DNA from: Maribacter sp.
GTDB lineage: Bacteria > Bacteroidota > Bacteroidia > Flavobacteriales > Flavobacteriaceae
Direction of reading: 5' to 3'
Assembly (NCBI GenBank): GCA_023141835.1
Contig: JAGLKG010000160.1
Location: forward strand, 1 to 33,612
DNA: 33,612 bases
Under the pieces are notes generated by a model. It did no database searches. It was not told the origin of the DNA and saw only the letters and a program-made list of their open reading frames with translations. Both the position numbers and the translations under genes were made by a program. This document shows positions 10,782-12,811 of the stretch, piece by piece; within the stretch, counting starts at the first letter, position 1; each line of letters starts with the position of its first letter.

Positions 10782-11924
10782 ATGGCGAAAGTCGAAGTAA
10801 AAGAATTATTGGAAGCAGGTGTGCATTTTGGACACCTTACAAGAAAATGGAATCCCAACATGGCTCCCTACATCTACATGGAGCGTAACGGAATCCACGT
10901 TATCAATCTTTACAAAACCGTTGCAAAATTAGATGAGGCTAATGAAGCCCTTAAAAAAATTGCAGCATCTGGCCGAAAAATACTTTTTGTGGCCACAAAA
11001 AAACAAGCAAAGGATATTGTTGCCGAAAAAGTAGCCAAGGTAAACATGCCCTATATTACTGAAAGATGGCCGGGCGGAATGTTAACCAACTTTGTGACCA
11101 TTCGTAAAGCCGTTAAGAAAATGGCTTCAATCGATAGAATGAAGAAAGACGGAACCTTTCTAACCCTTTCCAAAAAGGAAAGACTACAGGTTGATCGACT
11201 TCGTGCAAAATTGGAAAAAAACCTAGGGTCAATTTCAGACATGACCCGCTTGCCAGGTGCATTATTCATTGTTGATACGATGAGAGAGCATATTGCCGTA
11301 AAGGAAGCCCAAAAATTGAACATCCCCATTTTTGCGATGGTAGATACCAACTGTGACCCTAGGGATATAGATTTTGTTGTACCATCCAATGATGATGCTT
11401 CCAAATCTATCGAAGTAATAATGACACAGATAACCGATGCTGTTGCTGAAGGATTGGCAGATCGTAAAGCTGAAAAAGTTGCCGATACCCCTAAAGCAAA
11501 AACTGAGGATGCGCCAAAGACAAAAACTGAAGATGCACCAAAAACTGAGGCAGCAACTGTAGAAGCCCCGAAGAAGGTCGTTGAAAAAAAAGCAGCTGAA
11601 AGCGTTGCAGAAGTAAAAGAGGAGAAATCAGTAGAGGAAGCTCCTAAAAAGGCAAAAAAAGCCAGTGCTAAAGGTGATGATCTTACTAAAATTGAAGGTA
11701 TCGGACCAAAAGCTGCTGAAGCCATTGTAAGTGCGGGTATTACATCCTATGCTGATTTGGCGGTTGCAAAATCAGACAAAATCAAGGAAATAATCACAGA
11801 GGCCAGCTCAAGAATGGCTCACCTAGACCCAACTTCTTGGCCCAAACAAGCGAAAATGGCAGCTGATGGCAAATGGGATGAGCTAAAAGAATGGCAAGAA
11901 AACACCAAAGGTGGTGTTGAATAG
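10782..11924 (+). CDS. rpsB: 30S ribosomal protein S2 with C-terminal helix-hairpin-helix-like tail
   Basis: Small-subunit protein S2. Residues 1 to about 230 are the normal S2 core (LLEAGVHFGHLTRKWNP, ERWPGGMLTNFVTIRK, TRLPGALFIVDTMREHIAVK, DTNCDPRDIDFVVPSNDDA). S2 is usually about 230-260 residues; this one has 380. A Lys/Ala/Glu-rich linker with a short tandem repeat (KTEDAPKTKTEDAPKT) spans about residues 232-300. It is followed by a compact domain, DDLTKIEGIGPKAAEAIVSA, whose GIGPKAAEAI resembles a helix-hairpin-helix nucleic-acid-binding turn. The end, DPTSWPKQAKMAADGKWDEL, resembles the tail I remember on flavobacterial L21. The role of the tail is unknown. tsf follows after 62 bases. 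Confidence 0.95.
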   Translation: MAKVEVKELLEAGVHFGHLTRKWNPNMAPYIYMERNGIHVINLYKTVAKLDEANEALKKIAASGRKILFVATKKQAKDIVAEKVAKVNMPYITERWPGGMLTNFVTIRKAVKKMASIDRMKKDGTFLTLSKKERLQVDRLRAKLEKNLGSISDMTRLPGALFIVDTMREHIAVKEAQKLNIPIFAMVDTNCDPRDIDFVVPSNDDASKSIEVIMTQITDAVAEGLADRKAEKVADTPKAKTEDAPKTKTEDAPKTEAATVEAPKKVVEKKAAESVAEVKEEKSVEEAPKKAKKASAKGDDLTKIEGIGPKAAEAIVSAGITSYADLAVAKSDKIKEIITEASSRMAHLDPTSWPKQAKMAADGKWDELKEWQENTKGGVE

Positions 11925-11986
11925 GTTTGATTGAGTATGCTTTCAATCAAATAATTAAAATTGACATAAACAAAAAAACAAATAAA

Positions 11987-12811
11987 ATGGCTAAAATTAC
12001 CGCCGCAGAAGTAAATAAACTAAGGAAGACCACTGGAGCAGGAATGATGGACTGTAAAAATGCATTGGTCGAAGCAGACGGGGATTTCGAAAAAGCTATC
12101 GAAATACTACGTAAGAAAGGACAAAAAGTTGCAGCAAAAAGAGCTGACAGGGATTCCTCTGAAGGTGCCGCAATCGCTAAAGTAAATTCAGATAGTACGT
12201 CTGGTGTTATAATTTCATTGAATTGTGAAACCGATTTTGTTGCAAAAAATGATGGCTTTGTTACCTTGGCAAACGAATTGGCCGATTTGGCCCTTGGCTA
12301 CGATAGCAAAGCTGATTTTCTAGCTGCAAGTTTCAATGGGCTGTCTGTACAGGAAAAACTTACCGAACAAACAGGAGTTATCGGTGAAAAAATCGAAATT
12401 GGTGGGTTTAGTAAGCTAAACGCGGCATTTGTAGGCTCATATATTCATGCAGGAAACAAAATCGCCACTTTAGTCGGACTTTCTGAAGCCGTTGATGGTG
12501 CAGCTGTTGCCGCAAAAGATGTTGCTATGCAGGCCGCCGCCATGAACCCGGTTGCCTTAAATGAAGATGGGGTTGACCAATCAGTAATTGACAAGGAAAT
12601 TGAAATTGCTAAAGATCAATTGCGCCAAGAAGGAAAGCCAGAAGCCATGCTAGACAATATTGCAAAGGGCAAACTTAAAAGATTCTTCAAGGACAATACT
12701 TTGGTGAATCAAAATTTCATCAAAGATAGCAAGCAAAGTGTAGCGCAATATGTAAAATCTGTTGACGCTGAATTGGTCGTTACCGGATTCGAAAGAGTTG
12801 CACTAGGTTAG
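11987..12811 (+). CDS. tsf: Elongation factor Ts
   Basis: Guanine-nucleotide exchange factor that recycles EF-Tu, 274 residues. The N-terminal UBA-like module has VNKLRKTTGAGMMDCKNAL, and the exchange signature NCETDFVAKNDGFV follows; the C-terminus has KFxx-type LKRFFKDNTLVNQNFIKD. The frame is open from 11927, but the family begins MAKITAAEV, so the ATG at 11987 is chosen. It follows rpsB on the same strand, the usual rpsB-tsf operon, and is closed by a terminator. Confidence 0.96.
   Translation: MAKITAAEVNKLRKTTGAGMMDCKNALVEADGDFEKAIEILRKKGQKVAAKRADRDSSEGAAIAKVNSDSTSGVIISLNCETDFVAKNDGFVTLANELADLALGYDSKADFLAASFNGLSVQEKLTEQTGVIGEKIEIGGFSKLNAAFVGSYIHAGNKIATLVGLSEAVDGAAVAAKDVAMQAAAMNPVALNEDGVDQSVIDKEIEIAKDQLRQEGKPEAMLDNIAKGKLKRFFKDNTLVNQNFIKDSKQSVAQYVKSVDAELVVTGFERVALG

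Follow-up and report, generated by a model that had tools for sequence, protein, structure and literature searches.

Results

The uS2 gene and its C-terminal domain

The window, a stretch of 33,612 nucleotides of Maribacter sp. DNA, carries the gene of ribosomal protein uS2 (rpsB; ORF of 380 aa, 10782-11924, + strand), which consists of a core, a linker and a C-terminal helix-hairpin-helix (HHH) domain. The core (10782..11453, +) belongs to Pfam Ribosomal_S2, the profile being matched completely (1-216 of 216) by residues 9-224 with 304 bits against a cut-off of 26 (E 6e-91). It is followed by a charged linker of about 72 aa (residues ~225-296; 11454..11669, +), delimited by composition and lengths and rich in K, E and A (E 21%, K 21%, A 20%). 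Counted from residue 221 the linker comprises 77 aa in the window, as compared to a median of 72 and a range of 28-133 among 94 genes. The last 84 aa (residues 297-380; 11670..11921, +) form a five-helix HHH domain, as identified by Pfam, AlphaFold2 and the alignments A1 and A2; residues 299-337 score 37.2 bits on HHH_5 (PF14520), exceeding the gathering cut-off of 27 (E 4e-9), and thus fall into this family. In an alignment of 16 domains from S2, L21, L27 and one membrane-type protein the residues L, E, G, G, P and K of the hairpin motif LTKIEGIGPKAAEAI (11682..11726, +) are invariant in all 16 sequences, as are W, Q, A, A, W, L and Q in the second half of the domain, WPKQA...GKWDELKEWQ (11838..11897, +). 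According to the ORF list the stop codon follows at 11922..11924 (+). The next ORF (11927..12811, +) was recognised by eye as EF-Ts (tsf), its likely ATG lying inside the listed TTG-initiated frame. Opposite uS2 there is an antisense open frame of 224 aa (11051-11725, - strand), which is probably a by-product of uS2 codon usage.

AlphaFold2 modelling of the last 84 uS2 residues together with 72 further uS2 tails resulted in a five-helix domain with a mean pLDDT of 92.4. The model of full length uS2 (36 sequences) was poor, with a mean pLDDT of 60.4 and a pTM of 0.41; the block means of the HHH domain were 86-94 as far as residue 370, and pLDDT fell below 50 in linker residues 235-296, but also in core residues 1-42. 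Given this overall quality, the full length model is weak evidence for linker disorder and carries no information on docking. A preliminary description of the locus had proposed an S2 core followed by a charged linker and a compact HHH-like domain, in agreement with the HHH_5 match above cut-off and the pLDDT of 92; it had placed the start of the tail at 11476, which is one base out of frame, the tail beginning near 11454.

The modelled domain has its structural neighbours among HHH domains, namely those of Pol theta (Z 9.2), of RadA/Rad51 (7.8) and of the C-terminal repeats of NusA (7.1 and 6.7), where Z ≥8 was reached by 8 out of 129 chains and values below 8 may reflect a mere common arrangement. 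The NusA C-terminal acidic repeat 1wcn, with a Z of 7.1, gave a weak profile match (E 0.017), and other HHH families score equally high. Profile resemblance of the hairpin was detected to DNA polymerase beta (E 4e-4) and RadA (E 5e-4), and a Foldseek search with the modelled domain returned nothing at E 0.001 or better.

Distribution of the uS2 tail

We scanned genome contigs for the tail and found that in all of the best 80 of at least 445 relatives the domain is the end of uS2. In 78 cases the assignment is based on a uS2 core motif; the other two, L140 and L185, start inside uS2 at a contig start and were assigned by eye. The titles of tail carriers include Maribacter, Zobellia, Flagellimonas/Allomuricauda, Robiginitalea, Eudoraea, Pricia, Croceitalea, Kriegella, Ulvibacterium, Saonia, Euzebyella, Pareuzebyella and Muriicola; the marine bacteria that bear the tail are known polysaccharide degraders.

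In an even draw of 110 genomes of the family, which judging from the named carriers is Flavobacteriaceae, uS2 was matched in 107, and 17 of these 107, the genome of the window counted, carry the tail among the matches listed, down to E near 7e-24. Twelve of the 17 align through residue 380, and the tail of the other five aligns as an additional segment without change of frame. When we searched again with L21 as query, with matches listed to ~1e-12, the identical 17 uS2-sized carriers came up and no other. We then placed tail presence on a tree of S2 and L21 cores from 63 genomes, eight of the 71 fetched uS2 being left off (five missed by the motif, three with no L21 read). The 17 carriers form one group (support 100/98) and the tail occurs in none of the 46 others, so that its presence on uS2 is explained by one change with no loss among the 17 genomes of the group; this single change concerns the presence of the tail and not a single origin of the tail domain. 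G130, drawn from the phylum set, is an eighteenth carrier (Pfam S2 and HHH_5, L343). Long uS2 proteins of other Bacteroidota families (L377-L384) have long charged or Arg/Gly-rich ends and were rejected as HHH carriers, as the profile found no HHH in those read.

To quantify selection we calculated dN/dS by the Nei-Gojobori method for 94 tailed uS2 genes, a set in which some genomes possibly entered twice via two loci, using 500 pairs with a core dS of 0.15-1.2 and excluding saturated values. The median dN/dS is 0.045 in the core as against 0.066 in the HHH domain, the domain being below 0.3 in 496 of the 500 pairs, although domain dS is often high, rendering single-pair values rough. Median dN rises from 0.043 in the core to 0.105 in the domain. 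Hence, the HHH domain evolves faster than the uS2 core, yet under strong purifying selection. The low dN/dS and the fact that the best relatives are uS2 ends throughout indicate that the tail is real and not a chance match. The net charge of the HHH domain is negative, with medians of about -4 to -5 on S2 and -3 on L21, and the median of Rho_N is +2.

Other hosts of the HHH domain

The domain was found at the C-terminus of at least five ribosomal proteins belonging to both subunits, namely uS2, bS1, bL17, bL21 and bL27. In a phylum draw of 198 genomes it was detected at E 1e-10 or better in 20 genomes (44 rows). Sixteen rows from 13 genomes are ribosomal, comprising uS2 (4), bL21 (5), bL27 (3), bL17 (2) and bS1 (2); among the remaining 28 rows, 25 (23 ORFs) have a hydrophobic start and one is glycogen-binding-domain-like, both as judged by eye, and two are NrfD-type. 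Pfam confirmed L27 with HHH_5 in L049, L344 and L051, L17 with HHH_5 in L351 and L430, S1 domains with HHH_5 in L360 and NrfD with a sub-threshold HHH_5 in L426. L360, which is cut at the locus edge, scores 419 bits against a cut-off of 368 on one NCBIfam bS1 model. The window domain is 51-69% identical to aligned Bacteroidota L21 and L27 tails.

The preliminary description had expected the same add-on on proteins of both subunits, which holds for uS2 and bL21 and extends to bL27, bL17 and bS1. It had also named a WPKQA/GKWDEL ending on L21; bL21 ends in HHH in many family members, and the WPxQA/GKWDEL ending does occur on L21. Recurrence on other ribosomal proteins, on which it had staked its proposal, is borne out by the 41 of 78 classed family L21 that end in HHH, in addition to four divergent ones. 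As a general statement on flavobacterial L21 the idea does not stand, since L21 of G134, from the genus of the window, ends in Rho_N and L21 of F. johnsoniae lacks HHH. The search within the genome itself that it had suggested resulted in membrane-type and NrfD-type hosts, and the contig with L21 ends in the linker.

In the genome of the window, contig C450 encodes a protein of ~188 aa, hydrophobic at its N-terminus, which bears the same HHH domain and adjoins an OmpA-family gene (L003:1360-1926 (-) / L003:1937-2824 (-)), and on contig C307 there is an NrfD-family membrane subunit with a distant HHH version at its end (L004:1486-3183 (-)). The NrfD-type host of G158 and G064 carries a close HHH version, and L428 and L429 (G064, G158) encode membrane-type proteins with two tandem HHH domains. 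A census of seven genomes of the uS2-HHH group detected the domain on uS2 and on a ~190-aa membrane-type protein in 7/7 each, on the NrfD-type protein in 7/7 (weak) and on L21 in 3/7; at E 0.1 these seven genomes contained no domain host beyond those four kinds. Of the nine phylum-draw genomes in genus code g2, which resembles Flavobacterium in its L21, eight show no HHH ribosomal protein, so the tail is dispensable.

HHH and Rho_N alternate on L21

Rho_N is named after the transcription terminator Rho; it is unrelated to HHH and on L21 follows a linker similar to that of the HHH tails. In the genome of the window the contig ends within the L21 linker, after ...KAKAEA, and profile searches for HHH and Rho_N identified no loose L21-tail fragment in the assembly. 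In G134 the Rho_N end of L21 scores 37 bits against a cut-off of 24.9. We classed 78 family L21, which are not a random draw as 30 are the best matches to an HHH-bearing query and most others were chosen by hand, and obtained 41 with HHH, four with a distant HHH, 31 with Rho_N, one with neither and one, that of the window's own genome, which is cut. None of the 78 scored for both domains. In L111, L112, L252 and L253 the L21 end is a different HHH (ADDLKEINGIGPAYEKRLN type) behind a longer insert; by eye this ADDLKEINGIGPAYEKRLN type is nearer to the NrfD-subunit version. Outside the 78, the phylum draw contained three further family L21 with Rho_N (L043, L053, L056), six g2 L21 with the linker and no domain (L047, L057, L059, L060, L063, L064), and L21 of other families that are mostly tailless.

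The two tail types are mixed among relatives. Among the 17 genomes with uS2-HHH, L21 ends in Rho_N in nine and in HHH in seven. On the 63-genome tree the L21 types (35 HHH, 26 Rho_N) require 18 changes, at least nine of which are forced by well-supported branches; shuffled labels gave a mean of 19.9 changes, 114-120 out of 500 shuffles being as low, so L21 tail type shows hardly any structure on this tree. On a tree of L21 cores (72 rows), built from few columns and with weak support at many forks, 18 changes are needed, at least six of them forced, and only 4-11 of 500 shuffles (mean 23.4) are as low, i.e. tail type is somewhat clustered. In the closely related G213 (Rho_N) and G279 (HHH) the L21 cores are equal at 101 of 102 residues and the rpmA genes are 89% identical, which is the level of same-tail pairs (84-89%), indicating that this pair differs in the tail region only. 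We therefore rejected the idea that movement of entire rplU genes is the sole cause of the alternation, as the L21-core tree mixes tails too and both core and rpmA are shared by close pairs. A switchable cassette was also rejected because no spare HHH tail is present in the three census genomes with L21 Rho_N, G275 being the one L21-HHH genome of the census with a further ORF that ends in Rho_N.

Within the census of seven genomes, the hosts of Rho_N above cut-off are Rho (7/7; identified by NCBIfam TIGR00767 with 619-650 bits against 509), L21 (3/7) and a single further ORF in G275. The latter, a 102-aa frame (L299:1285-1590 (+)) in a genome with L21 HHH, has a Rho_N end above cut-off and is neither Rho nor L21. 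Across the phylum an L21-type Rho_N profile matched 42 of 198 genomes at E 1e-5. Its 25 strong matches (E <1e-18) are all on frames of 167-203 aa, five of them from the window's family and the remaining 20 from a single other family, and the weaker ones are mostly on frames of other kinds.

Origin of the domain

In a tree of 69 HHH domains, rooted on the membrane-type domains, which themselves are one group (100/99), 15 of the 17 uS2 tails cluster together (100/97), and this cluster joins the L21 tails of G226, G232 and G275 (98/88). A separate long-branched pair (100/99) is made up of the tails on uS2 of G251 and G297. The tree comprises 83 columns, which makes placements tentative; with this proviso an L21-type tail is the probable source from which most uS2 tails were copied, and in the lineages of G251 and G297 the uS2 domain may have been replaced, gained apart or strongly diverged.

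A plasmid origin was considered in view of ~100-kb Riemerella anatipestifer "plasmid" records (L387:5623-6541) and rejected, as these records, which hold murB, murA, miaA, rplU (with HHH tail) and rpmA, look like chromosome pieces. A phage search for the HHH domain gave no match at E 0.01.

Beyond Bacteroidota, a Methylobacterium bullatum record contains a uS2 with a C-terminal domain of the HHH type, which scores 653 bits on PRK12311 (cut-off 526) and whose tail matches the C-terminal parts of NCBIfam L21, NuoE and phasin models. Pfam at E 0.01 gives S2 alone for this protein and the A1 profile matches weakly (E 7.8e-6, 28 bits), so that the NCBIfam matches, together with the profile match to 8yy9_O, are the basis for regarding the two domain branches as kin. 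A Shinella record has the domain on NuoE, identified by eye from its place before nuoF, and on one other protein. The lineage-specific character that the preliminary description had suggested does not hold strictly, as the Methylobacterium uS2 has an HHH tail.

Discussion

A proposed tethered docking module on the ribosome

Extensions of ribosomal proteins are usually regarded as local rRNA glue. Here, one small folded domain is located behind a low-complexity linker on at least five ribosomal proteins, and on uS2 in two phyla. Its occurrence on many hosts and the L21 alternation (at least nine times on supported branches) predict a docking function off the ribosome surface. We tentatively favour, at somewhat less than an even chance, that the uS2 tail is a tethered docking module with nucleic acid or nucleic-acid machinery as the most likely partner. 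The linker, whose composition and weak modelling suggest flexibility, would hold the compact HHH domain off the ribosome surface, and the tethered domain would capture a non-ribosomal partner, the ribosome serving as carrier. RNA, DNA, RNA polymerase or a termination factor are candidate partners. The HHH fold neighbours in Pol theta, RadA/Rad51 and NusA, the low dN/dS and the contacts that RNA polymerase makes with uS2 and bS1 also speak for this reading. As the domain resides on five different host proteins, the attachment point seems to be irrelevant and being on the ribosome seems to be what matters; variation of the attachment point by lineage is more in keeping with a tether than with a fixed site and, together with the exchange of the tail for Rho_N, favours a partner linked to nucleic acids. 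RNA or DNA binding by the HHH domain, whose hairpin residues are conserved, is possible. However, a net acidic domain appears unlike a general nucleic-acid binder, which counts against the docking-module reading, as do the domain relatives on NrfD-type, membrane-type (one beside OmpA), NuoE and reaction-centre hosts, for which we know of no nucleic-acid role, the dispensability in g2 and the weak fold matches. A protein partner is quite possible, since the net negative charge and the presence on respiratory and membrane proteins allow for it.

Should the HHH domain bind another HHH-bearing or membrane protein, ribosomes would be kept near the membrane or clustered. This is consistent with the acidic nature of the domain, with the membrane-type protein carrying the same domain in 7/7 census genomes and with its presence on NrfD-type and NuoE respiratory subunits. 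We nevertheless regard it as doubtful, for it leaves the HHH/Rho_N alternation unexplained and G025, G057, G170 and G174 (g2) have the membrane-type protein and no HHH ribosomal protein at E 1e-10, implying that this protein is independent of the ribosomal HHH. A link between transcription and translation is a specific form of the docking-module explanation, in which HHH, resembling the NusA C-terminal repeat, and Rho_N, resembling the Rho N-terminus, contact RNA polymerase or its factors. The fold neighbours indeed include the NusA C-terminal domain (Z 7.1 and 6.7), and Rho_N is found mainly on Rho and L21 in the seven census genomes, the 102-aa ORF of G275 being the addition. Moreover, the review PMC6566652 describes contacts of RNA polymerase with uS2 and bS1 in 30S-RNAP reconstructions. 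RadA and Pol theta, however, score equally well or better, Z values below 8 may indicate just a common arrangement and NusA is matched only weakly by profile (E 0.017), so that we consider this form quite unlikely.

Two further explanations fare worse. Bridging of the subunits or docking of a hibernation factor would profit from having the domain on both subunits at once, as is the case in 7/17 uS2-HHH genomes, but L21 ends in Rho_N in 9/17, and none of the four carrier kinds in the seven-genome census is a hibernation factor. Furthermore, bL17, bL27 and bS1 are not known to share a ribosomal site, and we judge this explanation to be very improbable. Alternatively, the domain might be a mobile passenger, neutral or mildly useful, that spreads via recombination between Ala/Lys-rich linkers. 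The linkers are low in complexity and L21 tail type is hardly structured on the 63-genome tree (18 changes vs 19.9 for shuffled labels), but the dN/dS of the uS2 domain (0.066 in 500 pairs) is nearly as low as that of the core, the uS2 tail was never lost among the 17 genomes of its group and tail type is somewhat clustered on the L21-core tree (4-11 of 500 shuffles as low), which makes a passenger improbable. Going beyond the tethered docking module on uS2, many Bacteroidota and some Alphaproteobacteria might use interchangeable docking modules, where ribosomal protein (uS2, bS1, bL17, bL21, bL27) and module (HHH or Rho_N) vary and docking is kept, establishing a ribosome-transcription or ribosome-nucleoid link with an evolution separate from that of the NusG-type bridge; we put this forward as a speculative and rather unlikely generalisation.

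Comparison with known systems

The preliminary description had suggested inspecting solved flavobacterial ribosomes near the S2 C-terminus, and in that of F. johnsoniae the tail is absent. In 7jil, which is from F. johnsoniae according to PMC9976891, L21 has 147 aa, the match ending in the linker, and carries no HHH. The nearest solved S2, 9oy8_H, comprises 254 aa with no tail and no HHH; we take it to be from F. johnsoniae because it shares the entries 9oz9, 9ozn and 9ozz with that L21. This solved ribosome has neither tail and so cannot reveal the predicted docking. In the open-licence literature we found no study of HHH or Rho_N tails of ribosomal proteins.

The C-terminal repeats of NusA and the hairpins of DNA polymerase beta and RadA have the HHH fold and the hairpin motif in common with the window domain, but the similarity is weak. 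A C-terminal HHH of the same general type is found in the NuoE-type subunit NF009040 / PRK12373 and in the reaction-centre chain 8yy9_O, to which the window domain gives a profile match with E 1.6e-9; these hosts are parts of respiratory or photosynthetic complexes, whereas the host in the window is the ribosome. The 'sunset domain' variants of S2 and L17 (NF051451, NF051448) and a fusion of L20 with an unknown domain (NF011109) are likewise C-terminal add-ons of ribosomal proteins. The window uS2 scores 262 bits against 710 on NF051451 and thus is not a member, bL17 of L430 is below the sunset cut-off with its HHH beyond the matched part, and L21 of G134 matches NF011109 over linker and Rho_N with E 1.5e-5, a value to which the low-complexity linker may contribute.

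The closest parallels are the NCBIfam long-form models. NF008966 / PRK12311 describes a long-form S2 with the same order of uS2 core, linker and C-terminal HHH-type domain, i.e. curators already hold a model for this architecture, but with 272 bits the window uS2 stays below its cut-off of 526 and outside the family. The long-form L21 models NF008915 and NF008916 / PRK12278 have the same plan of L21 core, linker and C-terminal HHH; in Alphaproteobacteria, L21 with HHH is indicated by the NCBIfam models. L21 of L102 aligns with them over residues 2-206 of 224, scoring 132 and 133 bits against cut-offs of 281 and 193, and in G134 the Rho_N end of L21 lies mostly outside the part that they match. 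Long-form S2 and L21 with such tails are thus already known from NCBIfam, and what seems to be new is the breadth of the phenomenon, the uS2 tail across a whole clade, its kinship to L21 tails and the alternation of HHH with Rho_N.
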